From: a virus
Reading direction: 5' to 3' (one strand)
Virus record (IMG/VR): IMGVR_UViG_3300029787_000084
Location: 1-49,428 of that record
DNA: 49,428 nucleotides
The position numbers and the translations under genes were made by a program. Shown here piece by piece: positions 13,907 to 36,017 of the stretch. The notes below the pieces were generated by a model, which had not been told where the DNA came from, did no database searches, and saw only the letters and a program-made list of their open reading frames with translations. Numbering within the stretch: position 1 is the first letter of the stretch; every line of letters starts with the position of its first letter.

Positions 13907-14977
13907 ATGAATATTATGAAAATGTCAGATGCCAAGGCATCACTAGTATCAGTGTTAGATTATAATGATAGTCTAGCCGATAACCACCAAGATGCAGATA
14001 AGATTGTACCTTATATTGTAGGTCAAGCTGGTCTCGGTAAAACATCAATCGTGCAACAAGCATGTAAAGATACTAATCGTGGTCTAGTAATACTATCACT
14101 AGCACAGTTAGACCCTACTGAACTAGGGGGGATTCGTATACCATCTGAAGATCGTAAATCGGTGAACGTCACCAAACCAGATTGGCTTGTTGAGGTCGAA
14201 AGACAAAATAGTTCAAGTGAACTTTCTGGAGGTGCAGTATTTTGTGACGAACTAGCACAAGCACCTACTTCCCTACAGAATACGTCTAGGCAGTTAGTTA
14301 ATGAGGGTCGAGTTGGTCAATGGCATTTGCCTAAAGGTTGGCATGTGGTCGCCGCAGGAAATAGATTATCTGACAAGGCAGGAGCAAATCGACTCCCTAG
14401 TCATATGAAAGATTGCTTGACGTATTTTAATGTCGAGGGAGATGTTGAGGACACTTGTAATTACTTTGTCGATATCGGAGTTGACTTTAAAGTGATCGCA
14501 TATCTCAGAGCAAATCAGGATTTTTATTGCAAAAATGATCCTAGTCAGGATAGCAATCCTACACCTAGATCATGGCAGAGAGTCGGCAACATGCTAAAGA
14601 TGAAAGGCATGGATGCTAGACGATTGACTCAGATGATTGCTGGTCAAGTTGGCGAGTCTGCTTGTGCCTCTTTTGTAGGTTTTCTAAAAGTAATAGCTGA
14701 TGTTCCAGAGTTCCTAGACCTAGACAAGCTTATTGCTAATCCAAAATCTGCTAGTCTTCCAGAGAGACCAGACGTAATGTATGCCTTATGTTCTGCTTTA
14801 TCCTCTAAAGCTAATAGCAAAAACATAGGCAATATATTGCAGTATGTTGAACGTCTAACGGCTAAAGAGATGGGAGTTGTACTAGTCAAGGATGCCTTGC
14901 GAAGAGACAAGACTCTTAGGTCACATGCTGATGTTAAAGCATGGGTTCGCAATACTGGTAGGGAGATGATAGTATGA
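13907..14977 (+). CDS. MoxR-type AAA+ ATPase
   Basis: A 356-residue AAA+ protein of the MoxR/RavA kind, which remodel partner proteins, usually together with a VWA-domain protein. Walker A GQAGLGKTS is at 39-47 and Walker B VFCDE at 111-115, followed by AQAPTSLQN typical of MoxR. A conserved GRVGQWHLPKGWHVVAAGN segment is the sensor region. The 16-bp palindrome encodes SSSEL (102-106) in the loop just before Walker B. It overlaps the VWA gene by ATGA, so the two are co-translated and almost surely act together. The AGGAGTGA site precedes the ATG. Confidence 0.88.
   Translation: MNIMKMSDAKASLVSVLDYNDSLADNHQDADKIVPYIVGQAGLGKTSIVQQACKDTNRGLVILSLAQLDPTELGGIRIPSEDRKSVNVTKPDWLVEVERQNSSSELSGGAVFCDELAQAPTSLQNTSRQLVNEGRVGQWHLPKGWHVVAAGNRLSDKAGANRLPSHMKDCLTYFNVEGDVEDTCNYFVDIGVDFKVIAYLRANQDFYCKNDPSQDSNPTPRSWQRVGNMLKMKGMDARRLTQMIAGQVGESACASFVGFLKVIADVPEFLDLDKLIANPKSASLPERPDVMYALCSALSSKANSKNIGNILQYVERLTAKEMGVVLVKDALRRDKTLRSHADVKAWVRNTGREMIV
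14209..14224. repeat. Palindrome copy 5 inside MoxR ATPase
   Basis: TAGTTCAAGTGAACTT (first base differs), read as SSSEL just before Walker B. Confidence 0.9.
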
Positions 14978-16179
14978 ACATGTCTCCAACAATGACTCCA
15001 GAACTAAAGATATCCAGAGCAAAGACTAAGCTTATACTTGGATATCCATTCTTTGGATGCAATCTGATCACAACCCCTATCGTTGAGGTAGGGGAAGAGG
15101 TCACCAGAACAATGGCTACTGATGGCAGAAGTATATTCTGGAATAGAGAGTTCGTTGAGTGGTGTTCAGTTCCTCAGATTATCTTTACTTTTGCCCATGA
15201 GGTTATGCACATTCTTTATAAGCATCCTCTTAGAAAGAAAGGCAGAGAGCATGTCAGATGGAATAAATCTTGTGACTATCCTATTAATCAGATTCTTAAA
15301 GATGCTGGTTTTGAACTTGTCGATAATATTCTATTGGATTCAAAGTTTGGTAATCTGCCAGCAGAGGTAGTCTATAACAGACTCCCACCAGAACCAGAGA
15401 AACCAGAGGGAAAGGGAAAAAGTTCAAATGAACCTTTTGATGGTGGCTCTTTTGGTGAGGTTATTGACCCAAGGAATCCAGATGGCACGTTATTATCTGA
15501 TACTGAGCTTGGAGAGTTAGAGGGAGAGATCGACCAGAAGCTTCTTAATTCTTCCAAACAAATCATGGCTGGCAATTTGCCTAAAGAGATCAAAGATATG
15601 ATCAAGAAGTTGTTAGAGCCTAAAGTTGATTGGAGAGATCAGTTGTTGAGGTTTGTGCAAGGTGGAGACAATCCAGAGGATTTTACATTCTCTAGGTTTA
15701 AGAAGTCTACTCTTGAGACAGTTGGTACTCTTATGCCTACTAGTGATAGAGTTGGAGTTGCTGATGTTATTGTACTGCATGATCAGAGTGGCAGTATGGC
15801 TACACCAGAGCATGAGGTTGCATTTACTGAACTTAATGAGATCACCACGACTCTTTGTCCTAAGAGTGTCACAGTAATACCTTTCGACACTAGTGTTGCT
15901 GAAGAGGGTATACGTCACTATGAACAAGGAGAGGAGATAGACAAGGTGGAACTTGTTAGGTCTGGTGGAACGTCAATAACACCATGCTTCAACTATCTAG
16001 AGGAGCATGACCTAGTAGGTGAGGACACTAAGGTAATTGTTATGACCGATATGGGTATATGGGATTATCCTAAAGGTGACAATATTCCTCATTATGAAGT
16101 TCTTTGGTGTAATGTTTCTGGTAGTAACGAGGTAGCACCATTCGGAGACACTATACTAGTGAAAGAAGATCAAAGGTAA
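14974..16179 (+). CDS. Metallopeptidase-like / VWA protein, partner of MoxR ATPase
   Basis: A 401-residue two-domain protein. The N-terminal domain has FAHEVMHILYKHP with HExxH (H75, E76, H79) and the nearby WNKSCDYPINQIL (DUF2201-like putative metallopeptidase). The C-terminal VWA-like domain has a MIDAS motif D-x-S-G-S (D270 to S274) and VIVMTDMG. The domains are joined by a Pro/Gly/Lys-rich linker into which the 16-bp palindrome contributes SSNEP (150-154). VWA proteins are the substrate-binding partners of MoxR ATPases, and the ATGA overlap with that gene supports a functional pair. The target in the infected cell is unknown. Confidence 0.88.
   Translation: MNMSPTMTPELKISRAKTKLILGYPFFGCNLITTPIVEVGEEVTRTMATDGRSIFWNREFVEWCSVPQIIFTFAHEVMHILYKHPLRKKGREHVRWNKSCDYPINQILKDAGFELVDNILLDSKFGNLPAEVVYNRLPPEPEKPEGKGKSSNEPFDGGSFGEVIDPRNPDGTLLSDTELGELEGEIDQKLLNSSKQIMAGNLPKEIKDMIKKLLEPKVDWRDQLLRFVQGGDNPEDFTFSRFKKSTLETVGTLMPTSDRVGVADVIVLHDQSGSMATPEHEVAFTELNEITTTLCPKSVTVIPFDTSVAEEGIRHYEQGEEIDKVELVRSGGTSITPCFNYLEEHDLVGEDTKVIVMTDMGIWDYPKGDNIPHYEVLWCNVSGSNEVAPFGDTILVKEDQR
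15420..15435. repeat. Palindrome copy 6 inside VWA gene
   Basis: AAGTTCAAATGAACCT, one mismatch, read as SSNEP in the inter-domain linker. Confidence 0.9.
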
Positions 16180-16191
16180 CCCTATAGGGTT
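16178..16191. terminator. Perfect 14-bp palindrome after VWA gene
   Basis: AACCCTATAGGGTT starts within the VWA stop codon. It is followed 5 bases later by palindrome copy 7 and a T-run; together they may end or attenuate the MoxR/VWA message. Confidence 0.5.
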
Positions 16192-16196
16192 TAGGA

Positions 16197-16212
16197 AAGT
16201 TCAAATGAACTT
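16197..16212. repeat. Palindrome copy 7
   Basis: Exact AAGTTCAAATGAACTT followed by six T in all, in the 96-base gap before the gene at 16276. Confidence 0.95.
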
Positions 16213-16275
16213 TTTTAGACCCTATGCAGATACCTTTGTGTATCAATGTCATAAACAAAACAAGGAGTGAAAGTA

Positions 16276-17136
16276 ATGACAAATTTATTTAAGCATGGTT
16301 TAGTGCATCCCCATAAGGTTAAGGAGTTGTACAACCAATCTATCAAAGATACCATTAATACTCTTGGAGTTCCCAAGAATATTATTAAGCAAGTCTTTAA
16401 GATAACAGAAAGCTATTACTGTAGGCTAGAGGAAAAGAATTTATCTGATGAAGACAAGCTATGGTACTCAAACTTAGTTGAATCATGTAATGGTCTTGAG
16501 GGTAGTGGCAGAGATTTACCATTACCTCTGAAGAACATGTGGCTAAGTGGTAAAGCAATCAAGCAGTTTAGAAGACATAGAAACTCTTCTAGGAGTAAAG
16601 ACGGATTGATACAATCAACTAAAAATGCCATTATTAGTAATGTTAATTCTGTATTGTCCTCAGAGTTCCCAAGAACTTCTAGTGATAGATGTCTAGAAGT
16701 TTTCGTAGGCAGTAAATCATATCCTAAAGGTTTCAGTAGACCAGAGGATGAAACTGGTTTTCAACCTAGTTACAAGGCTAACTTTGGTTTGGCTTGGGTT
16801 AAGAAAGTCTACGACAAGGGTCTTGCTACAATTCAATCTGGCAAAAGAAAAGTGCTTACGATTCTACTAGAGCATGACCCATATCAATATCTGACCGAAG
16901 ATGGCATTGATTGTTATAAGGGTAGTTTCCTTGACATACGATTCAAGCACCGAGGTTCTGGTCAGTATGGCTATAAGATGATACCAGAATATCTTGAGGA
17001 CTATTGTTTGCTTATTAAGGAAACTGACAATGGCAAAGTGTTTGGTATTGGACAGAGTATATCTAAGGCTATGTCACTGCTAGAACGTAGGCAAAATGCC
17101 AAGGTTATGAAATCTTTAATGGAGAATGAACTATGA
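16276..17136 (+). CDS. Early protein carrying a TSSDRCLEV element
   Basis: A 286-residue soluble protein starting MTNLFKHGLVHPHKVKELYN. A GTG nine bases upstream is in frame but overlaps the AGGAG motif, so ATG 16276 is chosen. TSSDRCLEV (about residues 135-143) is encoded by the palindromic element shared with the gene at 13512. No known domain is recognised. A C-terminal block (ILLEHDPYQYLTEDGIDCYK...YLEDYCLLIKE) looks like a compact alpha/beta domain. Position directly after MoxR/VWA, with the same ribosome site, suggests it belongs to that module. Confidence 0.75.
   Translation: MTNLFKHGLVHPHKVKELYNQSIKDTINTLGVPKNIIKQVFKITESYYCRLEEKNLSDEDKLWYSNLVESCNGLEGSGRDLPLPLKNMWLSGKAIKQFRRHRNSSRSKDGLIQSTKNAIISNVNSVLSSEFPRTSSDRCLEVFVGSKSYPKGFSRPEDETGFQPSYKANFGLAWVKKVYDKGLATIQSGKRKVLTILLEHDPYQYLTEDGIDCYKGSFLDIRFKHRGSGQYGYKMIPEYLEDYCLLIKETDNGKVFGIGQSISKAMSLLERRQNAKVMKSLMENEL
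16674..16700 (+). repeat. 27-bp palindromic element B, copy 2
   Basis: Arms AACTTCTAG and CTAGAAGTT (to 16701) flank TGATAGATGT. It encodes TSSDRCLEV in the same frame as the copy at 13673. Confidence 0.9.
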
Positions 17137-17264
17137 ATATTGGAGAGATGTTTGATTGCATTAAGGGTATTACCTTAAAAGACCTAGTAATCATTTTACT
17201 TATAGCAGTTCTTGTTATGGCATGGTTCATGGTTGCTATGCACTATGGTGACTATCATGTTTGA
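17133..17264 (+). CDS. 43-residue membrane protein
   Basis: A short frame overlapping the preceding stop (ATGA). It reads MNIGEMFDCIKGITLKDL followed by one strong transmembrane helix (VIILLIAVLVMAWFMVAM, about residues 19-36) and a short tail. The next small membrane gene overlaps its end by 8 bases. The two may form a pair in the inner membrane. Function unknown. Confidence 0.6.
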   Translation: MNIGEMFDCIKGITLKDLVIILLIAVLVMAWFMVAMHYGDYHV

Positions 17265-17439
17265 TTTCTGGAGTGGTAATATCTTTAATAAGATAGCAGT
17301 TGTTTCTGGAGTTATGTTTGTCTTGCTGACACTAGGTTGTATTGGTGCAGATAACAAAGATGAAATGTCTGGATGGCTATCGTTAATAATGTTCGACACA
17401 ATGATGCTGATCGTTGGGTTGATAGGTTCTGAAAAATAA
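17257..17439 (+). CDS. 60-residue two-helix membrane protein
   Basis: Starting at ATG 17257 (MFDFWSGNIFNK), the protein has two hydrophobic helices (about residues 13-28, IAVVSGVMFVLLTLGC, and 40-56, WLSLIMFDTMMLIVGLI) with a charged loop (ADNKDEMSG). A longer frame from 17212 would overlap the previous gene by more than 50 bases and is not favoured. It ends the MoxR/VWA transcription segment just before a strong hairpin. Function unknown. Confidence 0.6.
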   Translation: MFDFWSGNIFNKIAVVSGVMFVLLTLGCIGADNKDEMSGWLSLIMFDTMMLIVGLIGSEK

Positions 17440-17446
17440 TGAACAT

Positions 17447-17476
17447 GGTAACCTTGGCTGCCGTACCAGGGTTACC
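17447..17476 (+). terminator. Strong 11-bp hairpin
   Basis: GGTAACCTTGG (17447-17457) pairs with CCAGGGTTACC (17466-17476) through one G-T wobble, with an 8-base loop. Two bases later comes palindrome copy 9 and its T-run, making a tandem terminator-like structure between operon segments. Confidence 0.65.
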
Positions 17477-17478
17477 AA

Positions 17479-17494
17479 AAGTTCAAGTGAACTT
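17479..17494. repeat. Palindrome copy 8
   Basis: Exact AAGTTCAAGTGAACTT with T-run, 7 bases upstream of the next gene's AGGAGTGA site. Confidence 0.95.
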
Positions 17495-17512
17495 TTTTAA
17501 TAGGAGTGAAAA

Positions 17513-18286
17513 ATGAAAAATAATATAAGTGAATATAAGCGTTACAAACCAAGATCATATAAAGGAGTTGTTTATTACTACTACTCTTTAACTCTAGAAC
17601 GATACTTTTACGACTACGAATATACAAATTGTTACAATCGTGATCTAGGTAGCATAGCAGTTAGAATAATTAAAGACGGAGAAGAGTATATGGAGGGTTT
17701 CTTCAATGCCTATCACTCAAATCGTTTAGAGGAAGATTTTAAGTTTAAAGAGATTGGATATAGCAACTCATATTGGGTTCAGTATGCTGACCAAAACAAT
17801 GTGCCAAAAACAGTTGATGGATTGCGAATAGATTTTCCATGTGTGGGAAAAGGTGCTTTGAAAAAGACTCCTATAAGACAGAGAGAGGATGCTTTTAACA
17901 GAGGTGCTAGATTTGATGTTTTTATTGGTGACAAAATGGATACTGATGTTGGTGCTAAATTTAGAGGACTTCATAAAAAACATGAGGGTCTTTGTAGTTG
18001 GAGACCTCAGAGAATAAAGATAGTGGACTATCATAATCTAAGACGTAAGTATGAAGAGTTACAAAAGTTTAGGAGTGGTATGTTTGATGACACTTTAAGC
18101 TATCCTAACAACATGCGATATTTAAACTTAGATGATGGCACTAGCATGACAAAATCAGAGTATGAAACTATCAGAAAAATGGTGGATAGTGATTACCGAA
18201 CTAATGATGAAATTTTGAATAGTACTAATGATGATGACTACCATGATCTAAGACGTACATTGGTGGAGATAGATGATGATGTATGA
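17513..18286 (+). CDS. Early hypothetical protein
   Basis: A 257-residue protein starting MKNNISEYKRYKPRSYKGVV, rich in Tyr, Asn and Asp, with an N-terminal beta-rich half (VYYYYSLTLERYFYDYEY...) and a charged helical C-terminal half ending with an Asp-rich stretch (STNDDDYHDLRRTLVEIDDD). DYHNLRRKYEELQ and DYHDLRRTLVEI are two similar short segments. There is no recognised domain. AGGAGTGA precedes the ATG and the stop overlaps the next gene by 14 bases. Confidence 0.75.
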   Translation: MKNNISEYKRYKPRSYKGVVYYYYSLTLERYFYDYEYTNCYNRDLGSIAVRIIKDGEEYMEGFFNAYHSNRLEEDFKFKEIGYSNSYWVQYADQNNVPKTVDGLRIDFPCVGKGALKKTPIRQREDAFNRGARFDVFIGDKMDTDVGAKFRGLHKKHEGLCSWRPQRIKIVDYHNLRRKYEELQKFRSGMFDDTLSYPNNMRYLNLDDGTSMTKSEYETIRKMVDSDYRTNDEILNSTNDDDYHDLRRTLVEIDDDV

Positions 18287-18725: not shown

Positions 18726-18728
18726 GAA

Positions 18729-19079
18729 ATGGAACTACCAATAATAAAATTAAAAAAAGATGAAGACCTAGATGACAGAGTATCTTGGTGTTATGCAGTT
18801 GTTAATTTGCCAGAGGGTGATGAAAATTACTATTGCATACAAGAGGTTTACTTTCAAAAAAATCCAGATGGTTCGACTAAACTAGTAGGTTACTGTGAAC
18901 CAGACATTGGCGCTAGTAAACTATCTGATCTAAAAGAACTGCTAAGATGGTTGCCTCATAAAATGTCTGATCTATCGGACTATGGCTTCCAAGGTAAGAC
19001 TCTACACAGGGATGACTTCCATTCTGAAGAAAGTTCAAGTGAACTTTTAGAGGAAATACAATCAGCGCAAGAGGTGTAA
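18729..19079 (+). CDS. Conserved phage hypothetical with inserted SSSEL element
   Basis: A 116-residue acidic protein starting MELPIIKLKKDEDLDDRVSW. The body (CYAVVNLPEG...YYCIQEVYF...PDIGASKLSDLKELLRWL) resembles small phage proteins with the pattern CYAV..P.G...I.EVY..., whose function is not known. Residues SSSEL near the C-terminus come from palindrome copy 9 within the acidic run EESSSELLEE. The AGGAGTGA site precedes the ATG. Confidence 0.75.
   Translation: MELPIIKLKKDEDLDDRVSWCYAVVNLPEGDENYYCIQEVYFQKNPDGSTKLVGYCEPDIGASKLSDLKELLRWLPHKMSDLSDYGFQGKTLHRDDFHSEESSSELLEEIQSAQEV
19031..19046. repeat. Palindrome copy 9 inside 18729-19079 gene
   Basis: Exact AAGTTCAAGTGAACTT read as SSSEL. With flanks it shares 19 bases, GAAGAAAGTTCAAGTGAAC, with the copy at 24265. 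Confidence 0.95.
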
Positions 19080-19080
19080 G

Positions 19081-19269: not shown

Positions 19270-19282
19270 TCTAATATGAACA

Positions 19283-19328: not shown

Positions 19329-19336
19329 AAAACTTG

Positions 19337-19371: not shown

Positions 19372-19398
19372 AGTAGACACTTCATATCCTTCCAACTT

Positions 19399-19655: not shown

Positions 19656-19671
19656 AAGTTCAAGTGAACTT
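19656..19671. repeat. Palindrome copy 10
   Basis: Exact AAGTTCAAGTGAACTT in non-coding DNA; the flanks CTAAA and TTTAG extend the dyad imperfectly. Confidence 0.95.
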
Positions 19672-19871: not shown

Positions 19872-21632
19872 TCAGAAAGGTGGGTCAGAGGGTAACTCTT
19901 CTAGCGTCAGAAAGTCATCATACAAACCTTTTGCCTTAACTTCTTTATATGCACTAGTTATGGGGTCGTAGTCTAATGTGGTGTCTCCTTGCTTACCTAC
20001 CCATGAATATCTACATTTCCAACAATGTATTTCTGCAACAGTAGACTTGTCTGGATTCGGTCTATGTACAGTTATGCCGAGGTCAGCTTTAGAAAAGAAT
20101 GAGGCACTACCACTAATATCGTAACCCTTTGGTACAGGAACTTTTCCACTAGTATCTCTCATCATCTTTGTCGGATGAGCTATGAAGAACATATGTATGT
20201 CGTAGCTTTGGGCAAACACTCTCAGTTGTGATAGCATAGACGATACCCAATCTGTTTCTTTCTCGTCTACGTTAGAACGATTGATATAATTGTATGGGTC
20301 TATTACGCAACCCTTTATGCCGTCTTTCAGGACAGAGTAACGCAATCTTTCTAACAATGACTCCAATGTAGGTAGAGAGCCGTCTGCTTGATAGACAAAA
20401 CTAAAATGATCTTTTAGAAACCTCTTCCCGTACTCAAGTTCCTTTTGTGAAAGTCTTGGTTGCAGTCCCTGAAAGAAAGGCTTACCAACTATCTTAGATA
20501 TAAGTTTAGCTATGTGTATGTCTGGTTGGTTTTCAAAACTTGCTACAGCAAACTTCCACCCCTTCTCCTTCGCTAAGTTGATCATTAACTGATCAACGAA
20601 CTCACTCTTACCTGAAGAGGGATGCCCAGTTACTATACTTAACTGTGATGGTACAATAGTAAATAATTCATCTACATTCTTGTAGCCAGTTGACTCTCCC
20701 TTTCCAAAACCCTCAACGTAAAGTTTATCCAGTTGCTTATAGAAATGATCTGCCGAATACAACCCTGATACTGGGAAAGGCTCTGCTTCATCAACTAATG
20801 CCAGAAGTTCAAGTGAACCTTTTTTAGTGAGAACTTCATTTGCATCTTTGCAATCTTCTGGAAACATAACACGATAACATTTATGTCTGCCAATACGTCT
20901 TGCAATCTCTTCGGACATGGCTTTACCTGCCGAGTCATTGTCAGTTGCGATAACTACTTTCTTTACGTCCTTGAGCATTTCCTTTGCGTTCCAAAGGAAC
21001 TTAAACTTCGTATCGCTCTGAGGGTCTATCTCTCCTTCTGACACTTTCATAACTGCTCCATTAGGAACAGAAACTACGTTTTCGCAGGAAGCTTCAAGGA
21101 ATGAAATCAAATCAACTTCCCCCTCACAAATTACTAATGGCTTCTCAGTATCTATTTTATCAACATTAAAAAATGTCTGTGGCGAACCATTACAAGCAAA
21201 CCCTTTCTCTTTAATGGATCGAATTTTTGATGCGTAAACTTGACCCTGATTCGTGTATGGAAACATTATACATTCTGTCTCGTGACCAACTGAATTTATG
21301 TAATTAGTGACCGACTTCAAGCCTACTTTATTTGCAGTTTCTTGGCTAATTCCTCGTTTAGATAGCCACTCTAAGCTATTGTTTGTTAAGTCTTTTTCGT
21401 CAATGCTCTTCATTACAGACATGTGGATTACCTCTTGTTCTTGTTTATGAAATTCTGAGCCAGATAAATCACAATGGTGGCAGTAATATACTGCACCATC
21501 ACCATCAACCTTAACTGATAATGTTCTTAAATTTTTTTTCTTCCGATCACGGCACTCAACTGATGGACATTGGATTTTATGTTGCCCTAAATTTAAATTG
21601 AGAACCATGCTTCTTATTTGCAAGTTTTCCAT
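19872..21632 (-). CDS. Primase-helicase (T7 gp4/Twinkle-like)
   Basis: A 586-residue replication enzyme with primase and helicase in one chain. It has an N-terminal zinc finger with C22, C27, C51 and C54, and a TOPRIM domain with VICEGEVDL (E170, E172) and VVIATDNDSAG (D231, D233). The RecA-like helicase domain has Walker A GHPSSGKS (336-343), Walker B-like GCVIDPYNYI (D445) and FFIAHPTK. It should unwind the fork as a hexamer and make primers. Palindrome copy 11 adds GSLEL (272-276) in the linker between the TOPRIM and helicase domains. It is transcribed opposite to the flanking early genes together with the RusA gene. Confidence 0.93.
   Translation of the reverse strand: MENLQIRSMVLNLNLGQHKIQCPSVECRDRKKKNLRTLSVKVDGDGAVYYCHHCDLSGSEFHKQEQEVIHMSVMKSIDEKDLTNNSLEWLSKRGISQETANKVGLKSVTNYINSVGHETECIMFPYTNQGQVYASKIRSIKEKGFACNGSPQTFFNVDKIDTEKPLVICEGEVDLISFLEASCENVVSVPNGAVMKVSEGEIDPQSDTKFKFLWNAKEMLKDVKKVVIATDNDSAGKAMSEEIARRIGRHKCYRVMFPEDCKDANEVLTKKGSLELLALVDEAEPFPVSGLYSADHFYKQLDKLYVEGFGKGESTGYKNVDELFTIVPSQLSIVTGHPSSGKSEFVDQLMINLAKEKGWKFAVASFENQPDIHIAKLISKIVGKPFFQGLQPRLSQKELEYGKRFLKDHFSFVYQADGSLPTLESLLERLRYSVLKDGIKGCVIDPYNYINRSNVDEKETDWVSSMLSQLRVFAQSYDIHMFFIAHPTKMMRDTSGKVPVPKGYDISGSASFFSKADLGITVHRPNPDKSTVAEIHCWKCRYSWVGKQGDTTLDYDPITSAYKEVKAKGLYDDFLTLEELPSDPPF
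20805..20820. repeat. Palindrome copy 11 inside primase-helicase
   Basis: AAGTTCAAGTGAACCT, one mismatch, read on the minus strand as GSLEL in the interdomain linker. Confidence 0.9.
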
Positions 21633-21675
21633 GATTCATTTTTTCTCTGACTTTTTGCATTAAAAATGAATACAA

Positions 21676-23007: not shown

Positions 23008-23188
23008 TAAAAATAAATTTAACATTGAAACTGAGTATTATAATTGGCTTGAGAAATGTCCTTTGTCACATTGGCAAACGATATCAGAGCATAAGCACAC
23101 TGATCACATAGCAGTGACAGTAAAATTTAAGATACCTAAAAAAAGTTCAGTTGAACCTTTAGATGATTACAGAGGCATGGATCAATGA
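23000..23188 (+). CDS. Small hypothetical with SSVEP element
   Basis: A 62-residue protein (MSDKNKFNIETEYYNWLEKC...) that overlaps the nuclease stop by 8 bases and the next start by 4. CPLSHWQ and a strand-like DHIAVTVKFKIP are visible. Palindrome copy 12 encodes SSVEP near the C-terminus. Function unknown. Confidence 0.7.
   Translation: MSDKNKFNIETEYYNWLEKCPLSHWQTISEHKHTDHIAVTVKFKIPKKSSVEPLDDYRGMDQ
23143..23158. repeat. Palindrome copy 12 (degenerate)
   Basis: AAGTTCAGTTGAACCT: centre GT and one arm mismatch; read as SSVEP. Confidence 0.75.
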
Positions 23189-23862: not shown

Positions 23863-24553
23863 TAAATCAATATGGCAGTCTCTTAAAACTATTAATGTAG
23901 AGGAAGAGAAGTTAGTCGAATCAAAGAATGGTCTTAGGTATATATCTTGGGCTATGGCATGGAGCAGATTATGTGACATGTACCCCGATGCTAAAATGGA
24001 AAAGCATTGCAACGAACAAGGTCTACCTTATTTTAAGGATGACCAAGGGTGGTGCTTCACTAAGGTTACTGTAACTGTTAAGGATAAATCTATAACTGAG
24101 GTTTTACCAGTTCTTAGCTTTAACAATAAACCAATACAACATCCAAACTCTTTCCAAGTAAATACATCTCTAATGAGATGCTTGGCGAAGGCTATAGCGT
24201 TACATGGTATGGGTGTAGCCGTTTATTCTGGAGAAGATTTAAAGGAAGATACAACTCAAGAAGAAAGTTCAAGTGAACCTTCTGTTACTGTTTTCGAATC
24301 ACCCCAGGATATTAAACATCCCTTTTCTGTGAAGAGTCCAACTGGAGAAGTTAAGTCTGGCGATGAAACACTGAAAACAATAATTAGTGTATTTGATGAG
24401 TTCTTACCTCAATGCAGTAGCTACGAATCAGTGAGCAACTTCTGGAAAGACAACAAGGTTGGATTGTCTTTGATAGAAGAGAAAAACAAGAAAGAGTTTC
24501 AGAGAATCAAAGATGATTTTATGAATAGACGTAATAATTTTAAACCACAGTAA
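23855..24553 (+). CDS. DUF1071-like single-strand annealing protein
   Basis: A 232-residue protein starting MSDKSIWQSLKTINVEEEKL. The N-terminal 130 residues match the DUF1071/Sak-like group of annealing proteins (SIWQSL...NGLRYISWAMAWSRLCDMYP, VTVTVKDKS..EVLPVL, SFQVNTSLMRCLAKAIALHGMG). These bind ssDNA and promote strand annealing in phage recombination, usually with an exonuclease and SSB, as found next to it. SSSEP from palindrome copy 13 lies in the flexible linker before the C-terminal helical part. Starts at 23843 (TTG) and 23852 are possible, but 23855 has GGAG at 6-base spacing. Confidence 0.82.
   Translation: MSDKSIWQSLKTINVEEEKLVESKNGLRYISWAMAWSRLCDMYPDAKMEKHCNEQGLPYFKDDQGWCFTKVTVTVKDKSITEVLPVLSFNNKPIQHPNSFQVNTSLMRCLAKAIALHGMGVAVYSGEDLKEDTTQEESSSEPSVTVFESPQDIKHPFSVKSPTGEVKSGDETLKTIISVFDEFLPQCSSYESVSNFWKDNKVGLSLIEEKNKKEFQRIKDDFMNRRNNFKPQ
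24265..24280. repeat. Palindrome copy 13 inside annealing protein
   Basis: AAGTTCAAGTGAACCT, one mismatch, read as SSSEP. Confidence 0.9.
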
Positions 24554-26887: not shown

Positions 26888-27165
26888 CAAAGAAAGAAGA
26901 TATAATAGGAAAAGCACAGGAAACTGTGGGAGCAAGGGGAGATAGCTACGGAACTCCTTACACAAACTTTAGTCGAATAGCAGAACTATGGTCATGTCAT
27001 CTTGAAAGAGACATAACAGTATATGATGTTGGAGTGCTGTTTATATTAGCGAAAGTCGCTAGGTCAAAGGAAGACATGAACCATGACGACACTTGGATTG
27101 ATATAGCAGGGTACGCAGGTGCAGTTTCAGAAGCAATAGAAGACGATAACAAAAAGTTCAAATGA
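26884..27165 (+). CDS. DUF6378-like protein
   Basis: A 93-residue protein with RGDSYGTPYTNFSRIAELWSCHL, DVGVLFILAKVARSKED and HDDTWIDIAGYAG, the pattern of DUF6378 proteins found in many phages, whose function is not established. The final KKFK and the TGA stop are made by palindrome copy 14. It is the last gene of the rightward recombination operon and meets the giant gene tail to tail. Confidence 0.78.
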   Translation: MTKKEDIIGKAQETVGARGDSYGTPYTNFSRIAELWSCHLERDITVYDVGVLFILAKVARSKEDMNHDDTWIDIAGYAGAVSEAIEDDNKKFK

Positions 27166-27169
27166 ACTT
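27154..27169. repeat. Palindrome copy 14 at convergent gene ends
   Basis: Exact AAGTTCAAATGAACTT. It contains the TGA stop of the plus gene and touches the TAA stop of the minus gene, the only separator between the two operons. Confidence 0.95.
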
Positions 27170-30100
27170 AATCGGTAGCACCCAGTTCAGATAGGTAACC
27201 TAACTTTACATTCTTCATTAGCTGATTACCTCTAGATATAAGTTTCTGTATATTTTTATCTAAACGCTCTAGCTGTAGTTCTTTCTTATCTTCATCAAGG
27301 TCTTTGTCTCGTAGTATTTTATTTCTAACAGAAGTCAACTTCTGTCTCTTAGAGTTTATTGCTCTTATAATTCCATATATCTTTAGTTCATCGGGATACT
27401 TCTGACGAACTCTTTGTATTTCGCTTTGTTCTCCAGACTCAACTGCAGCTTTAAGTTCCTTTCTGGCTATAAACACTTCGTTTCTTTTCCGTATGAAGTT
27501 ACCAGTGTCTTCTCTTTCTGATGTAGAGTAGACTGCCCTTCTTAGAATAGGCACTGTTCTTAGGAAGTCTCTGGCTTCTTGACCAGTTAGACCCTCCTCA
27601 AAGGCTTCAAAAGCCTCTCCTGACCCTATGTTGTACCCTAACTCCAAAGACCTCTTAACAAACATACCTGCACCACCAGTAAAATATCCGAATATAAAGT
27701 CTAGTGTATCTGGTGAAAAATCAAGAATACCACCTCTAACGTCAGAGCCACCACCTATGCCGAGAAAACCAAACTTATTTAACAACTGTGCTGTGCCTAC
27801 AGCAAATGGTGATGCACTATTCCAATATGCCTGACTGTCTGGAGTGCCGACTGCAAACTGTGACACTTGCTTGTATATAGGTGTTTTATCGTAATCTATG
27901 TTTTGACCCAAGCTTATCCAAGGATCAACGGCTGTGGGCATTACAAAGTTCCAAAAGCTTTCTGCTCCACCTAAAGGATTAACTGCTTCTAAAGTTGTTC
28001 CAGTGATGCTTGAGGTTGCTTGGGCTGCAGTATAGCCTCCCCTCATTCTTCTACTCAAAGAACGACCTAAGTTTGTTGCCATATTAACTCCGTATGGCAG
28101 TGGAACTGTACCAAATGTTTTGCTTTCTATATCCTCTCCTGTGATTGCTTGGGCTATATTCACACCAACATTAGGTATAATCAAATTATGCTCTAGCATA
28201 AAATCAGTGAGCTTATCATATTCTAGGTTACCTTCTTCATCTTCATCGGAAAGCAGGGCATTTAATTGATCCATCATAAATGAAAAGAAGAATATTCCCA
28301 TCCACATTTTTCTGACCTTTGAAGATTTAGAGAACGCTTGTAACAGGGCAAATGAACCCTGTAATGATGCGTTATAAAACAAGTATAATGAGTTAAATAT
28401 GGGCTTGTAATCTCCACCTTTAGCAAAGTTCACTGTTATGTTACGAGCGGCTAGAGCGGCTTGCCTTGGACTATACTTTCCAGTATCTAACAATGTTTGA
28501 AATGTAGAAACACGGATGCCGTTTTCAGCGGCTGTGTTAAGGTTTTCAACAAGAGACACTAAACTTTTAACTCTACCTCCTGCAAAGCCATCATACATTG
28601 CTTTTGCTTTACCTTTTAATCCTGCATCTGATATGTCGTTTAATATGCCACCAAGGTCATTGACTTGATCTTCTAAGGTAGTCATCTGGTTAGTAACATT
28701 CTTACCACCATACTTTACGAACTCAAAATATGCTTTAGCCTCTTTAGAAGTAGTGTCTGGATTTTTGCTACGAATAGCTCTCATAACACCTCTTGAATAT
28801 CTAAAAGCATTTTTCCCAACATTTACCTTTAAGTTTTCTCCTTCATACTGATCTATATTTACAACTGCTGTTTGAAGGTCACGAACAAAGTTTGGTATAA
28901 CGAAAGCAGGGTTATAAGTTGTGTTTATGCTTGAAAGAAATCTGTTAAATAAACCTATCTTTCTAACGAAAGCATCAGCATTTTCTCCTAATGAACCAGT
29001 GGTGTCCCCTCTAAAAGCTCCTGCAATCCTAGTATCATTAAAACGAATCACTATCTCCTGACCCCTTTCCTTGACCACAAGTATATGCTTGTCCTCCATT
29101 AGCTCTCTTGTGCTAATTGGATTCTTACTTATGGTGGCAGTTCTAGCGTCAAGTCTTCTAGTTTCTGGTCTTATGTCCTGTATCTGAGCAAACTCTTTTA
29201 GCATATCAGGGTCTTGCCTAATCATGTTAAGCATAGTTAAACCTATTTTATTTCTATCTCCTCTTATTAAAGAGTTGGAGTTTTGAGTTAGAAGATTAGC
29301 TATAATATTGGGAGAGTAATCCATTCGACCTTTAACACGGAGGTCTTCTAGACCATTAGAGCCATACAGTGGTTTATTAAATGAGCCTCTGTTAGAATAA
29401 TCTACTGTCTCATCCTCAGTGTGGAACACACCTTTTAACGGTACATACTCTTTCCAACCAGAGCCTTCACCAAATATTCTTTGCAAACCAGAATCTGTAC
29501 GAATTTTGTTTGTGTCAGCTACTATAGCTCTTACTTTATTTCTAATGTCATTTAAAAGTTCAAGTGAACTTTCTTTGTTTCTAAACCAACCCAATATAGC
29601 ATCAGCTTCTGCATTAGACATTCCAGAACCACGATCAGGGAACTTATTAACTCTATTCTTGTCTATACTAGTTACATACCTGTTTCTTTCTCTGGCATGT
29701 AAAGCATATAGATATGCTTCTGCCATAGCTAAATTCTTGCTTTGCTTTCCATAAAGTAGTTTCTTCCAAAAACTAGGAGTAAATTCATCAAGGAAGTTTG
29801 CAAGAAATCCGTTCTGATCTGAGTCAGAAGAATCTCGTGACACTCTCTTTAAGTCATCAACTTCTGCATCAGTAAAGTTTAACTTCTTAATATCGTCTAT
29901 TAAGTCTTTGTAGCTTCCTTTGTGTCTCTGTTCTATCTTATCTCCTGTTTCACCCTTCATGGTTTGCTCTTGGAGTATTGGGTCTAGAGCATCTGAAAGC
30001 TTAAACCCTTTCTCTTGTAGCTCATCTACCATTCTTGCCGCAGGTATCATTCTATCTTGAAATTTTCTAACAACCCAATCAGCTAAATCTTTAGATTTCT

Positions 30101-33100
30101 GTTCATCAAATCCAACAAAAGGTATTTTCTTGCTCCCAAACACAGGAATAAAATCAGGAACTTTACCCATTAGTCTGTTTGCTATAGCGTTAGCTGATGC
30201 TGTGTACATCATTTTATGTTGATGAGCCTGTATATCTTCTCGTATAGAGCCTTCTATTCTGTCTTCTTTTATCTCTTTGTCTGGAAGTAAACCTATACTT
30301 CTTCTTACTGTTGGGTCGGCTCTCCTGGCATCACGTTCATCAATGATTCCTTGTTGCTGTTCTTGGATGTCTCTGTTCTTTTCTTCTTGGGGTTTGAACT
30401 CTGAGAGCTTTTCCCTAACGACTGAAGCTCTTTGAACAGTCCTAGCATTTCCTGATCGGGGGTCAGTTCCACCAGTGACACGGAATCTATCTGTTGGGGG
30501 GAGTGCTTTTTCGATATCGTCATTTTCTATTCCTTCCTTTCTTAATACGTCTATTGCTCCGTCTACATAGTCGTGTTCACCTCCACGACCCTCTCTAACG
30601 CCTAAAGCTTTAAACAAGCTCTTTTCGTGAAACCACATTAATGCTTGGAAGTCTGCGTTTGTTAATGCTCCCTTGCTTATTACGTCTGTTTCTTCAAGTA
30701 TTTCTATGGCTCTTTTAGTGGCGTTTCTCATGTACGTTCTGTGACCACCACTATCAGGTGCTTCTAATATAGGTCCGAAGAAGTTATTAATCATATTTGC
30801 AGATTCTCTAGACAGAGGAGAACTTACATCAATTCCTGCTGCTACCCTATTTGCATTTTGCCTTGCAAGTCTTTCCTCGCCTGTAAGACCTTTAGTACCC
30901 TCATCTCTAATTCTATTGTACTGCCTCTCTCTTTCTTCAAAAAAAGCTTTTGATAAATCTATTACATTTTGATCTAACTTATTCTTTTGATTTCTAAATA
31001 CAGGCTTACCCACTTCCTCTATGGCTATTCTTAAAGAATCTCTATCTACTTTTGTAAGCTGACTTTTAGGAGTTTTTAATGCGTTTATAAATCTATTGTA
31101 GTTATTTACTTTTGTTTTATCTTGGCTTGACCTGAAAGGGCTTCCAGTAATTCTATTAAAGAACCTCTGCCACCACATATCCATAGTTATATTGTCGTAG
31201 TTTCCTCTAAGGTTCTGATAAAATCCATTACCTATCTTAGGTCCGAACACTATAGATTTGGTAACAACAGTATCTTTTAACTCTGAGCTTAAATTTTTAG
31301 CTATGTTTAATTTGTAATCTTTATCTAACTTTTTGAGAAAAGGGCTGTCCTGAAGTTCTTTTATAGTAACTTTCTCATCAAGAAACTTAGCTATAGCTAG
31401 TTCGTCACCCAACTCGTCTTTCATTATATTAAAAAACTTAAATGACTTTTGCATGGCTTCTACTCTTTTGCCATAACCTCTAATCTCAAACTTACCTGTA
31501 TTAGCCCATGATCTATAAGCTTTAAGAGCATGAGATGCATTGTCTAGCACAGCTTCACCATTTGAAGTGACTGCCAAAGCATAATCAAAAGCTACTTCAT
31601 GCCTTGCATCAGAAGTTATCTCAGGATGAAGTATAGAGAAAAGTTGCTTTGCTAATGTTAACTTTTCATTATACCAACCTATGGCATTTCCATCTTTAGC
31701 TAGAGCAAGTTGTGCTTCTGCTGCCATTATTCTGGCAACTCTTTCAAAGTCCTCTGGTCTGTTAAGTCTGTAATCAACTCTAAAGTCTTCTCCAGACCTT
31801 TTCATTCTGGCGTTTGTATAATCACGAATTATCTGCTCTGCTTTTCTCTGCTCTGGCTCTCCGTTAATAATTGGTAGAGAGTTTATAAACTTTAATGTTT
31901 CTTGATCTATATCTGGAAGAGCAGAAGCGTTGTACTCATCTTCTGTTAACAATCCTATAGCTCTTCTCAACTTTAATGGAGTCTCTCCATAGATTGTATC
32001 GTACATATCTATGTCATCTCTCATTATCTTCCCAGGTCTTATTAGAACATTTTGCTCGTCATCGTTAGTGAAGATATCGCCTTTGCCAAACTGTGGAGCT
32101 ACAATTATATCTTTTTTATCTACAAAATAAGGGAGAGCCTCTGGCTCAACTCCCCTTTCTTCTACAAATTGGTCACGCAATGGAGGCAGAGATAACATTG
32201 CTCCTCTTTTTGCACCCTCTTTATTAAGAGCGTAGTCATGTGCTACCCCTAAATAAAGACCTTTGTCATCAACAGTTCCCAATCTCCATACAGGTATAGT
32301 GTCAGGCAAATGCTTTAATTGCTGTTGAGTTATGTTATACATGTCATCTTGTATAATTTTTATAATGTCAATGTTTTCAGGGTTAATATCATATTCTTGT
32401 AGGTACTTAGAATTTCCTATTCTTACCATAAGACGTTGACGCAATATGTCATCTATACTGCTGAAGTATAAACTTGCTATATCGCCTTCTGTGGGGAAAG
32501 TTGATGGGTCAGCCCAATAGTCATCTCTTATCTTGAGGTATTCTTTGGTTACAGGGCTAACTTTCAAACCATCTTTTTCCATCTCTGCTATGAGATCAGG
32601 TAAATCTCTGCCTTTGTACTTAGGATTAGGTTCATTTACAGGAACGTTATCTATACCCATAGGCAGTTTATCTTCAAACGATGCATCTTTTTTGTCGGCA
32701 TCTAATGTTCTATCTATAAGGATAGAGCCTGACATCTTGCCTAGTTGTTTTATAAACTCCTTTTCGTCTATAAACTTACCATTTACCATTTTGCCTCTTG
32801 AAATCTTAGAGTACATTGTCTTAGCAGTGGCAGAACGCTCTTTGGCTTTCCTTGTGCCTCCTATTTTACCTGACTTAATGCCATCAAACACATCTTCTAC
32901 TGTCTCAAAACCATTGTCATTATGAGACATAAACAATGAACGGAAGAACTTTATTACCCTTTGAAATAGATTTTGAGGCTTACCACCTACTTTAAGTTTG
33001 TCATCCATGTAATCACGGAACATTTCAGCTACTGCTTCTTCTTCTACTAACTCTCTATATTCAGATAGCTCTTTCTCATTCATCTGCTCAATAGGTTTGC

Positions 33101-36017
33101 CTGGCTGATAAATTCTTGCTGACTGCTGAAAGTATGTGTAGTTTCTTTGAAGAAGCTTTCCCTCTCTCCAGATAGACACTTTCCTAGACTTAACAGCGTT
33201 AACTAAAGTCTGATACTCTGCATCTGTAAATAAACCTAACGCTCTAAGTGAGTGTATAACTTCATGGTTTAGTATGCCCTTTAGCCGCTTATATACTTCC
33301 CTTAGACCTTCTTTGTTCTTAAATGAGTCAGCATCAAATAACTCAGTAGCAAGAGTAATAACACGCTTGTTGTGACCTGCTCTTTTCTCTGTTCCAAATG
33401 TTATAGTTTTTTCGTTGGGGTCTATGACGTTTTGCGTAACCAACTCAACCATATCTGGTTTGAGTTTTAAGTCTTTAATAAGATAGGTTCTTAGCTTATT
33501 AGCCACCTTTTGCATATTAACTCTGTATTTAAGAGAGAATGGCTTACCAGTAGCTACTCTGGAGTTTGCTGTAAAGTTGTTTCCTTCATGCTGTTCATGG
33601 TTAAATTGTTTACTAGCGTGGGCATCATCAAGTCTGTCTTTTAATGCTTTTTCATCTACAGTTAGTTTCTGCTCTTCCTGAACACTTGCATCAAGTTCTG
33701 TTATTTTAGCTCTTAACTTGTTGTCATCTTCTGGTGTTTCTACCTTTTGCTCTAAGGCTTTCTTTTCCCTTCTTAATCTTCTTGTTTTATTTTTTTGAAG
33801 TTTAAGTTTATCTTGAACAGCTTTTCTTCTGTAAAACAACAACTCAGGATTATCAGGGTCACCACCTGAACGCCCTTTCCTAGTGTTGTCCACCATCGAG
33901 TCACTGGTCTCCATACCATCTATTTCATCTCTAGCAGTCTTTATAGACCCTTCTATCCTGTCTATTTTTGTTTGGATAACATCAACTGTTCTTCTAAGCT
34001 TAGTAGGAGACTGATTAACTGTTTTTTTCTTGCCAAGCTGATTGTTAAGAACTGTAGCTACAGAAGCTTTTAGTTGAGATATTTTTTCTGGTGTAGCGTT
34101 CTTAGCAGGTGATCTAAAGTTAGTTTTCAATACTTTATTAAACCTACTAATATTATTAGTTATTTTACCATCTGCTTGTTTTATGTATATTGGTAACCCT
34201 CGCAGCTGCTCAAGGCTCTCTACTTTAGCATTAGCTTTTTCTAACTGCTCTCTGCTTTTCTTTAAATTAGCTTCCTCTTTAGATATACGTCTTTCTAGCT
34301 CATTGGCTCTAATAGCATCTCTACCTAGTGTAAAACGCTGTTCTTTTTTGAACTGCGTTTTAGTTACTGCTTTTACTTTGGCTTCAGGAGTATACGTTCT
34401 TCCCTCAGTGGCTCTTATATTGCCCATTCCAACCAAGTCATTTCTTATGGACGTAATAAGTTCACTTGAACTATTTTTAACTACACCTTCAATTATGTAG
34501 TCCATCTCAAGCTCTGAGAACCTTGTTTTCTTAGATTTCTTTATAACATCTAACACCTTTTCATACTGATCGTAGCTGTATTTTCTAGGTGGTTGTAATG
34601 GTATTTCTGTTCTATCAACGTCTAAGCCTTGCTTCGCAGCCAACTTCTCAGAAGCCACATTACCTAGAGCAAGTCTAACTTCTCTTAGAGTTATAGGTAT
34701 GTCCTTGAATATTATCTTTCCAGTATCAGGATCACGACCTTCTACATATATTAACTCACCCTTCTCGTTTCTTTGTGTTTCTCTCCATCTTCGTATCTTC
34801 TGCAACTGCTCCTCAGTTAACTCCTGGTCAGACACTTCCCTCTCGGCTATCTGCTCTGATGCTAGTTTCTCATCTGTCTGAGTTAATCCACTGTTAGTAG
34901 GTGTTTCTTCCTGTGCTGTAAGTGCTAGTGGGTTTTGATTGTAGGATTTATTTTGATTTGTCTGTGCTTTTTTGTTTTCTTGCTTCTTTATTTCAATGTC
35001 TTCTTCAAGCTCTGCATTAGCTTTTATCTGTTTGTTAGGACCTGATAGCTCCTGTGCAGTAGCAACAGTACCTCTAACAGCACCACCTACTATACCTCCT
35101 GCAACGGCTGCCTCTAGATACTCTTCCATTGCCTCATCGCCAAAAGGCTCAAGACCTGCTTGTATCCTCTCTATCATTTGTTGACCAACTTCTGTTAAGC
35201 CCTCTACTACGACACCTGATCCTGCAGCTCCTGCCACGCCAATCCCTGATGCTATCTTTGGCTTAACAACTTCTAGTTTAGTAAGAAGACCATCTGTCTT
35301 AAATTTACTTGGAACAAACTTACCTCCTGCTTGGGCTACCTTTGTAATAAATTTTAAACCAAAGGTTTCAAGAAGTGCTTGTGGTAGTGTCGCTAGAAAA
35401 GCCGCCCCTTCGTTTACTTCAACCTTTCTTCCTGCGTCTATGTCTGCCTCTTTCTGACGTTCTCTGTTAGCACCTAATAACAGAGGTACTGTCATAGCAA
35501 ATGTACCTATAAGAGCGGCAGGGGCTACCAAGGGTGCTGATATTAAAGCTGCCGCACCACCTGCTATTGCACCTGCACCCATAGCTAAACCCATCTGAGG
35601 ACCTGCCTGACCAAGGGCTTCTCCTGCAAACTTTGCTGCCGTTCCTACGCCTTCAACTTCTTTTAGTCTTGTTAGACCCTCTGACTTCTGAGCCGCTGAA
35701 TCAGTGTAACTCTCTGATATATCACCAAAGTAGTTTGCCATACCCTCTAAGCCAGTTGACTCACCTAGACCTTGCATAGCAGAAGCTAGGTGTGCGCCTA
35801 TCAAGTCAGTGCTTACATCAATAGCACCAAAGATACCTGATCTTGGTTTGTAAGCTGTTTCAGATTCTATCTGGCTGTCTACAGAAGGAACACCACGTTC
35901 TCTTTGCGTGATGTAGTTCTTTATACGATCTTTTTCTTCGTCTGTTGGGAGTTCTCCTGCAATGTTTACAGGGTAGTATCGACCTGTATTTGGGCTTCTG
36001 ACCAGTTTAAGAGGCAT
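27168..36017 (-). CDS. Giant internal/ejection protein with HExxH and LPD38-like domain
   Basis: A 2949-residue protein, 18% of the window. It opens with LVRSPNTGRYYPV, then a Gly/Ala-rich hydrophobic region (about 125-185 and 265-330) able to insert in membranes. Long charged coiled coils follow (about 570-860). ILNHEVIHSLR holds HExxH (H918, E919, H922), a metalloprotease-like site. Near the C-terminus TTYNPAFVIPNFVRDL (about 2366-2381) matches the LPD38 type of large polyvalent protein domains. Such proteins are packed in the head and ejected with DNA; that role is inferred from family and position after the other internal proteins. Palindrome copies 15 and 16 add SSLEL and SSSEL. It is the last gene of the late operon. 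Confidence 0.88.
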   Translation of the reverse strand: MPLKLVRSPNTGRYYPVNIAGELPTDEEKDRIKNYITQRERGVPSVDSQIESETAYKPRSGIFGAIDVSTDLIGAHLASAMQGLGESTGLEGMANYFGDISESYTDSAAQKSEGLTRLKEVEGVGTAAKFAGEALGQAGPQMGLAMGAGAIAGGAAALISAPLVAPAALIGTFAMTVPLLLGANRERQKEADIDAGRKVEVNEGAAFLATLPQALLETFGLKFITKVAQAGGKFVPSKFKTDGLLTKLEVVKPKIASGIGVAGAAGSGVVVEGLTEVGQQMIERIQAGLEPFGDEAMEEYLEAAVAGGIVGGAVRGTVATAQELSGPNKQIKANAELEEDIEIKKQENKKAQTNQNKSYNQNPLALTAQEETPTNSGLTQTDEKLASEQIAEREVSDQELTEEQLQKIRRWRETQRNEKGELIYVEGRDPDTGKIIFKDIPITLREVRLALGNVASEKLAAKQGLDVDRTEIPLQPPRKYSYDQYEKVLDVIKKSKKTRFSELEMDYIIEGVVKNSSSELITSIRNDLVGMGNIRATEGRTYTPEAKVKAVTKTQFKKEQRFTLGRDAIRANELERRISKEEANLKKSREQLEKANAKVESLEQLRGLPIYIKQADGKITNNISRFNKVLKTNFRSPAKNATPEKISQLKASVATVLNNQLGKKKTVNQSPTKLRRTVDVIQTKIDRIEGSIKTARDEIDGMETSDSMVDNTRKGRSGGDPDNPELLFYRRKAVQDKLKLQKNKTRRLRREKKALEQKVETPEDDNKLRAKITELDASVQEEQKLTVDEKALKDRLDDAHASKQFNHEQHEGNNFTANSRVATGKPFSLKYRVNMQKVANKLRTYLIKDLKLKPDMVELVTQNVIDPNEKTITFGTEKRAGHNKRVITLATELFDADSFKNKEGLREVYKRLKGILNHEVIHSLRALGLFTDAEYQTLVNAVKSRKVSIWREGKLLQRNYTYFQQSARIYQPGKPIEQMNEKELSEYRELVEEEAVAEMFRDYMDDKLKVGGKPQNLFQRVIKFFRSLFMSHNDNGFETVEDVFDGIKSGKIGGTRKAKERSATAKTMYSKISRGKMVNGKFIDEKEFIKQLGKMSGSILIDRTLDADKKDASFEDKLPMGIDNVPVNEPNPKYKGRDLPDLIAEMEKDGLKVSPVTKEYLKIRDDYWADPSTFPTEGDIASLYFSSIDDILRQRLMVRIGNSKYLQEYDINPENIDIIKIIQDDMYNITQQQLKHLPDTIPVWRLGTVDDKGLYLGVAHDYALNKEGAKRGAMLSLPPLRDQFVEERGVEPEALPYFVDKKDIIVAPQFGKGDIFTNDDEQNVLIRPGKIMRDDIDMYDTIYGETPLKLRRAIGLLTEDEYNASALPDIDQETLKFINSLPIINGEPEQRKAEQIIRDYTNARMKRSGEDFRVDYRLNRPEDFERVARIMAAEAQLALAKDGNAIGWYNEKLTLAKQLFSILHPEITSDARHEVAFDYALAVTSNGEAVLDNASHALKAYRSWANTGKFEIRGYGKRVEAMQKSFKFFNIMKDELGDELAIAKFLDEKVTIKELQDSPFLKKLDKDYKLNIAKNLSSELKDTVVTKSIVFGPKIGNGFYQNLRGNYDNITMDMWWQRFFNRITGSPFRSSQDKTKVNNYNRFINALKTPKSQLTKVDRDSLRIAIEEVGKPVFRNQKNKLDQNVIDLSKAFFEERERQYNRIRDEGTKGLTGEERLARQNANRVAAGIDVSSPLSRESANMINNFFGPILEAPDSGGHRTYMRNATKRAIEILEETDVISKGALTNADFQALMWFHEKSLFKALGVREGRGGEHDYVDGAIDVLRKEGIENDDIEKALPPTDRFRVTGGTDPRSGNARTVQRASVVREKLSEFKPQEEKNRDIQEQQQGIIDERDARRADPTVRRSIGLLPDKEIKEDRIEGSIREDIQAHQHKMMYTASANAIANRLMGKVPDFIPVFGSKKIPFVGFDEQKSKDLADWVVRKFQDRMIPAARMVDELQEKGFKLSDALDPILQEQTMKGETGDKIEQRHKGSYKDLIDDIKKLNFTDAEVDDLKRVSRDSSDSDQNGFLANFLDEFTPSFWKKLLYGKQSKNLAMAEAYLYALHARERNRYVTSIDKNRVNKFPDRGSGMSNAEADAILGWFRNKESSLELLNDIRNKVRAIVADTNKIRTDSGLQRIFGEGSGWKEYVPLKGVFHTEDETVDYSNRGSFNKPLYGSNGLEDLRVKGRMDYSPNIIANLLTQNSNSLIRGDRNKIGLTMLNMIRQDPDMLKEFAQIQDIRPETRRLDARTATISKNPISTRELMEDKHILVVKERGQEIVIRFNDTRIAGAFRGDTTGSLGENADAFVRKIGLFNRFLSSINTTYNPAFVIPNFVRDLQTAVVNIDQYEGENLKVNVGKNAFRYSRGVMRAIRSKNPDTTSKEAKAYFEFVKYGGKNVTNQMTTLEDQVNDLGGILNDISDAGLKGKAKAMYDGFAGGRVKSLVSLVENLNTAAENGIRVSTFQTLLDTGKYSPRQAALAARNITVNFAKGGDYKPIFNSLYLFYNASLQGSFALLQAFSKSSKVRKMWMGIFFFSFMMDQLNALLSDEDEEGNLEYDKLTDFMLEHNLIIPNVGVNIAQAITGEDIESKTFGTVPLPYGVNMATNLGRSLSRRMRGGYTAAQATSSITGTTLEAVNPLGGAESFWNFVMPTAVDPWISLGQNIDYDKTPIYKQVSQFAVGTPDSQAYWNSASPFAVGTAQLLNKFGFLGIGGGSDVRGGILDFSPDTLDFIFGYFTGGAGMFVKRSLELGYNIGSGEAFEAFEEGLTGQEARDFLRTVPILRRAVYSTSEREDTGNFIRKRNEVFIARKELKAAVESGEQSEIQRVRQKYPDELKIYGIIRAINSKRQKLTSVRNKILRDKDLDEDKKELQLERLDKNIQKLISRGNQLMKNVKLGYLSELGATD
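29556..29571. repeat. Palindrome copy 15 inside giant protein
   Basis: Exact AAGTTCAAGTGAACTT, read on the minus strand as SSLEL near residue 2149. Confidence 0.95.
34458..34473. repeat. Palindrome copy 16 inside giant protein
   Basis: AAGTTCACTTGAACTA, last base differs; read as SSSEL near residue 515. Confidence 0.9.

Follow-up and report, generated by a model that had tools for sequence, protein, structure and literature searches.

The stretch of viral DNA analysed here (the window) is a whole 49,428-nt IMG/VR record, a 49.4-kb contig from a marine phage. It carries 18 copies of the palindrome AAGTTCANNTGAACTT with one mismatch or none, and when three mismatches are allowed 22 sites are found against 6.2 expected (sd 2.6, maximum 12) from 100 dinucleotide shuffles of the window. 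Eight copies lie wholly within genes, and the other ten comprise seven intergenic copies, two that provide a TGA stop and one in a likely terS leader; these ten are intergenic or at gene edges despite a genome that is approximately 95% coding. All ten are perfect, and six of the eight intragenic copies have one mismatch. The 14.8-kb early arm holds 13 of the 18 sites (p = 3e-4).

Among the late genes, an intergenic site (4001..4016) occupies a slot that is also filled in genomes G001, G002, G041 and G042. Further left, just 3′ of the major head protein gene, there is an Rfam match to the Mu-gpT-DE RNA (594-640, minus). The next site (12466..12481) is in the divergent region between terS and the gene for P243, an uncharacterised 243-aa protein encoded by the first gene of the rightward (early) arm (12606..13337, plus strand). 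This copy overlaps a possible terS start, but because a better start (MTKLRLIKG, after GGGAG) sits downstream of it, it is probably in the leader rather than in coding sequence. A site directly 3′ of P243 (13361..13376; motif match, slot and folding) forms the tip of a long hairpin, as does one between the VWA gene and a 289-aa gene (16197..16212; motif match and folding). Between these two, one copy gives the TGA stop of a 112-aa ORF, with MoxR 60 bp further on (13839..13854; motif match and slot), one encodes SSSEL before Walker B of the MoxR ATPase (14209..14224; motif match and homologue alignment) and one encodes SSNEP at residues 149-153 of a metallopeptidase/VWA protein (15420..15435; motif match, domain search and alignment). 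The 289-aa gene (16267-17136) belongs to an uncharacterised, fast-evolving family that adjoins MoxR/VWA in 30 of 37 genomes and has no Pfam or PHROG match.

Further sites lie upstream of gene 17513 (17479..17494; motif match and promoter context), within gene 18729-19079 as SSSEL (19031..19046; motif match) and between genes (19656..19671; motif match). They are followed by three intragenic copies placed by motif match and alignment: GSLEL at residues 271-275 of the primase-helicase (20805..20820, minus), SSVEP in a 62-aa gene (23143..23158) and SSSEP in the tail of an annealing protein (24265..24280). A copy at the convergent junction (27154..27169) supplies the stop of a 93-aa gene and abuts the 3′ end of a giant gene, within which motif matching and comparison with relatives place two more, encoding SSLEL near residue 2150 and SSSEL near residue 516 (29556..29571 and 34458..34473 (minus)). 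The giant protein itself (27168-36017) is 2949 aa long, with an LPD38 polyvalent-protein domain, and its complete homologues in relatives that bear the motif are 2,800-3,200 aa long. The last two sites, found by motif match, are directly 3′ of -10-like boxes: TATGATA, approximately 20 bp before the start of a 393-aa gene (40133..40148), and TATAAA, approximately 23 bp before the start of a tail gene (47231..47246).

Spelling and position of the sites in related phages

Relatives, many IMG/VR contigs that share core genes, were gathered by pattern and protein searches. A de novo palindrome search of approximately 40 related genomes returned one dominant palindrome each in most of them, at 2-5 per 10 kb. 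GTTCA..TGAAC is the spelling of the window's lineage and many others; AAAGTTA....TAACTTT (the GTTA....TAAC class) is found in G040-G043 and, its centre there being 5 bases long, in G044; AGTTCT..AGAACT (GTTCT..AGAAC) in G049; TTTGTAC....GTACAAA (TTGTAC....GTACAA) in G045, G047, G048 and G053; and AAAGTACT..AGTACTTT (AGTACT..AGTACT) in G058, the class of some small contigs being based on 1-3 sites. The motif is absent from the best-matching records of phage collections (e.g. HTVC027P, CRP-7, 45A6 and Vibrio 1.205.O).

Several slots are filled across motif classes: the terS leader in 16 genomes of four classes, the 3′ end of the giant gene in 16 genomes of three, and also the primase-helicase near codon 273, the tail of the annealing protein, the stretch that follows P243 and the 393-aa gene's leader. 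The primase slot reads GGT TCA CTT GAA CTT (GSLEL) in the window, AGT TCT ATA GAA CTT (SSIEL) in G041, AGT ACC ATA GCA CTT (STIAL) in G058 and, in another frame, AAA GTT CTA GAG AAC TTA (KVLENL) in G049, each version approximating the palindrome of its own genome. Comparison of these sequences shows that the positions of sites are kept while the DNA spelling and the encoded peptide change.

Peptide and DNA at the intragenic sites

It had been predicted from the window that all intragenic copies are read in one frame, and this was confirmed, as eight of eight read SSxEL, SSxEP or GSLEL, offset 2 of the 16-mer. The further claim that one-frame use is non-random also stands, since the bias persists in related GTTCA phages (binomial p = 1e-4 against a null from the phages' own codon usage, which predicts 53% offset 2). 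Intragenic sites in 21-24 related phages with the same motif are at offset 2 in 41 cases, offset 1 in five and offset 0 in one; counted as distinct gene positions, the GTTCA lineages have approximately 29 in the SSxEL frame, five in the other open frame and one in the stop-containing frame. Codon usage and local composition were rejected as the cause of the bias, since 29 of 34 positions use this frame where their nulls predict 53% or 36%. The rule is restricted to the GTTCA motif, and other classes prefer other frames: in GTTA lineages the SSxEL-type frame occurs 12 times and KVxxNF 11, most sites of the GTTCT lineage read VLxNF, and 10 of 11 sites in TTGTAC lineages give LYxxT. Written symmetrically in the SSxEL frame, a GTTA-lineage site would hold TAA, and most of the copies read in this way carry GAA (G for T). 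We infer that the alternative V-[QH]-x-N-F peptide is selected against in loops, and that sites persist in loops or linkers that tolerate the available polar peptide, with the frame set by motif spelling and protein tolerance.

The placement of the copies in loops and linkers was borne out in part: they do occupy tolerant loops, linkers and tails, with the hydrophilic frame strongly preferred, but the VWA copy, thought to separate the peptidase and VWA domains, is inside the metallopeptidase domain (DUF2201_N, residues 12-241). The MoxR copy precedes Walker B as described (a PDB search with MoxR, for mapping the loop position, gave no match), the primase copy, placed between TOPRIM and helicase, sits just after TOPRIM (residues 167-268), and the annealing-protein copy, placed before the tail, sits at the end of the SSAP domain. 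Alignment with homologues gave a mixed answer on precise insertion. Three of five usable copies, in MoxR, VWA and the annealing-protein tail, have their SSxEL in length-variable regions, and two are same-length substitutions without a gap: GSLEL against GKDGI in the primase-helicase, and KKSSVEP against KKSASEH in the 62-aa gene. The original prediction saw in the intragenic copies an inserted, tolerated peptide of the kind known from Rickettsia palindromic elements, which are long mobile inserts whose palindromes within genes are read in frame. The sites of the window are 16 bp, often arose by substitution, and are re-spelled with their position kept. The analogy thus fails on substitutions without indels, slots re-spelled per lineage and the use of other frames elsewhere, and comparison of related phages gave no sign of mobility.

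At four intragenic sites, codons for residues shared between the window and G002 are identical in 19 of 19 cases, whereas 30-48% differ elsewhere in those genes. In 21 related phages, 30 of 35 SSxE[LP] peptides are motif-encoded, and the five with non-motif codons compare with 7.9 expected from composition. Homologues thus keep the DNA and not the peptide, and SSxEL peptides in other codons are no more frequent than composition would give. These comparisons show that selection at intragenic sites acts on DNA rather than on peptide, and the SSxEL peptide is best explained as a by-product of the DNA site.

P243 as the candidate reader of the sites

P243 was singled out by its co-occurrence with the motif and by covariation of its residue 87 with motif spelling. 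Clustering found it in 33 of 37 genomes and a profile search added three of the remaining four; G057, the last of these, lacks both P243 and the motif. Every lineage that bears the motif and was sampled in enough sequence has P243, and protein and motif are both missing from ten relatives among phage records. AlphaFold2 models of two members give a helix at residues 65-77 or 64-77, a turn at 78-81 and a helix from 82 (pLDDT 83-85, pTM ~0.6), a helix-turn-helix-like unit as read from secondary structure. The second helix (residues 82-105; 12849..12920, plus strand) has residue 87 six residues in; its arginine codon in the window (12864-12866, plus strand) would specify the proposed specificity residue.

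Across segment 82-93 of 98 P243 loci, many of them near-duplicates or fetched through the GTTCA motif, the context of residue 87 is KR in every GTTCA lineage, KK in GTTA, GTTCT and AGTACT lineages and [NDE]K in TTGTAC lineages; that is, R87 goes with GTTCA and K87 with the other spellings. An arginine with a TpG step, and a lysine where TpG is lacking, is chemically sensible. In a post hoc search for discriminating columns, which covered approximately 4,700 columns of 13 core proteins, only residue 87 of P243 was fixed within both classes, as R and K respectively, and eight other core-protein columns separated the motif classes but only with mixed residues. On a primase tree, helix state and motif state need three changes each and agree in all pairs, so three switches occur together among independent lineages, two of them on strongly supported branches; the correlation thus rests on only two to three independent switches, a number at which the pair test is powerless. 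Contigs from outside the first set follow the same pattern: a phage contig of a Porticoccaceae MAG has SAKRYWENS in the helix and 22 GTTCA sites, and four new contigs (L353-L356) have NK helices, TTGTAC-type near-matches and no GTTCA sites. One 62.5-kb contig binned in a Porticoccaceae MAG (G059:C14, NYWV01000005.1) is a probable near-complete phage of this phage family and gives a lead to the host.

Searches of Pfam, PHROG, PDB and phage records returned no meaningful relatives of P243; the G055 member had no match among 50,697 phage records, 30 members gave no ParB-family match, and no fold match was found in PDB. One uncultured-phage protein in BFVD matches it. Other candidate binders were considered and rejected. 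XRE/CI-type (HTH_3) repressors occur in only 4 of 25 genomes, and P243 itself has no Pfam match; terS, MoxR, VWA, primase and the other core proteins have no column fixed by motif class. We consider it very likely that P243 reads the palindromes as DNA sites, and conclude from sequence comparison that it represents a new family of phage DNA-binding proteins, with putative binding and dimerisation.

Dispersed operators, genome organisation and other readings

We propose that the palindromes are probably operators, scattered over the genome, for a dimeric protein that the phage encodes and that tunes transcription; P243 is the most likely candidate. The helix-turn-helix-like unit of P243 would read each half-site, with R87 going with the TpG of TGAAC/GTTCA. 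The first early gene, adjacent to the site of the divergent control region, would supply P243, which would bind at 10-20 places per genome and block or tune transcription at leaders, at gene ends and inside long genes. Intragenic sites may exist since their position matters, with the coding sequence adjusted around them, in the window's lineage mostly through the frame that gives a soluble SSxEL peptide in a loop; a change in P243 specificity would then lead to re-spelling of the sites, often in place. A transcription regulator with dispersed operators, possibly roadblocks, is favoured because of the leader sites after -10-like boxes (40133 and 47231), the site in the divergent region and the concentration in the early arm. 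Promoter-like patterns in the early arm are no commoner than in shuffles, and a rigid dimer would not usually go with an odd spacer like that of G044. P243 is less likely to be a classical immunity repressor, as no match to a tyrosine integrase (PF00589) was found in 25 partly incomplete records.

A close parallel is with the stoperators of Cluster A mycobacteriophages such as L5 and Bxb1, which also comprise tens of short sites across the genome and one phage-encoded protein, in comparable places and with a motif that diverges between relatives together with the protein, if P243 binds DNA as proposed (PMC6550527; PMC9283540). Stoperators are 13-bp asymmetric sites that mainly share one orientation; their repressor binds as a monomer, and the phages are temperate, with an integrase or parABS (PMC6550527; PMC9283540). 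The sites of the phages studied here are palindromic and many are intragenic, none of the searches related the P243 family to the Cluster A repressor, and the 25 records gave no tyrosine integrase. The repeated element of SPbeta is likewise read by one phage master regulator, MrpR, but has approximately ten promoter-region sites and a recombinase-fold repressor in a temperate phage (PMC10516654). KorB of plasmid RK2 is also a single global DNA-binding regulator with dispersed operators, and can act over a distance, although it is a ParB-family CTPase clamp (PMC11790492) and P243 has no recognisable ParB/Srx CTPase domain.

Another possibility is that P243 binds the sites but organises the genome, in compaction, segregation, replication or packaging, as do ParB, MatP and DdrC-like proteins. 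We regard this as unlikely, although it merits consideration since sites are conserved in mid-gene and at the convergent junction, places unlike promoter operators, and the evidence for regular spacing is uneven. In three of eight genomes tested the sites are spaced more evenly than at random (G012, p 0.004; G043, 0.027; G059:C14, 0.029), so even spacing was rejected as a general rule, and spacing is not regular in the window or G005. The lack of a tyrosine integrase among the 25 records also suits genome organisation, and the long C-terminal helices of the P243 models suggest oligomerisation; against it, sites cluster in the window's early arm and at leaders, and no ParB or other known domain was recognised in P243. 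At its most far-reaching, and as a tentative suggestion, a new DNA-binding family would organise the genome in lytic growth through 10-20 fixed palindromes, even inside essential genes, and each change of the recognition residue would have led on to re-spelling, so that the primase and other proteins would have changed residues solely to keep a DNA site.

A role of the palindromes as hairpins in RNA, for termination or processing, with the RNA read by P243 or a host nuclease, is improbable. All of the sites are able to fold as RNA (five intergenic ones at -6 to -9 kcal/mol), and some intergenic sites, 13361 and 16197 among them, top long hairpins whose arms vary between relatives yet pair; but most sites have no extended stem, only a minority of intergenic ones having one, the A and T conserved on either side of the centre are unable to pair, and the closing position is unpaired in approximately 40% of GTTA-lineage sites with intact AAAGTT arms. 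At intragenic sites, in mRNA sense, G-U (16) and A-C (15) mismatches are equally common, with no preference for wobble, and RNA pairing is therefore not maintained. The long inverted repeats tipped by the palindrome (13346-13391 and 16186-16223) have equivalents in G041, G042 and G002, with folding energies of -20 to -31 kcal/mol, and their outer arms diverge but pair across lineages (GGGTTTA/TAGACCC in the window, GGGGATC/GATCCC in G040); they may be elements for RNA processing or termination that incorporate the site.

A host protein reading the sites, with P243 merely tracking lineage, is highly improbable: a host regulator could impose a motif on its phages, but the motif varies even among close lineages of phage and follows both the presence of P243 and its residue 87, and no GTTCA site occurs in the rest of the 1.9 Mb Porticoccaceae MAG, the candidate host. 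A tiny mobile palindromic element that inserts a tolerated peptide in one frame, as first proposed, is barely credible, since the preferred hydrophilic frame and the three of five comparable cases in length-variable loops have to be set against indel-free substitution in the primase and the 62-aa gene, re-spelling of the same position by lineage and the other frames of other lineages.

Read as operators for P243, the sites would provide a natural record of a regulator and all its sites changing specificity together, with five or more spellings, two or three independent switches, a single candidate for the specificity residue and re-spelled sites within genes. They also suggest a testable function for a family that the libraries searched leave unannotated, in marine phages for which metagenomes are the only source here. 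That selection for a DNA site can dictate protein sequence is a warning when conserved peptides in phage proteins are interpreted.

Two other repeats were seen in the window. A 27-bp direct repeat, AACTTCTAGTGATAGATGTYTAGAAGT (96% identical; 13673-13699 and 16674-16700), lies inside two early genes and contains an inverted repeat, and the 10-mer ACGGTATACC (11426-11437 and elsewhere) is counted seven times over both strands, one copy being the perfect palindrome ACGGTATACCGT.
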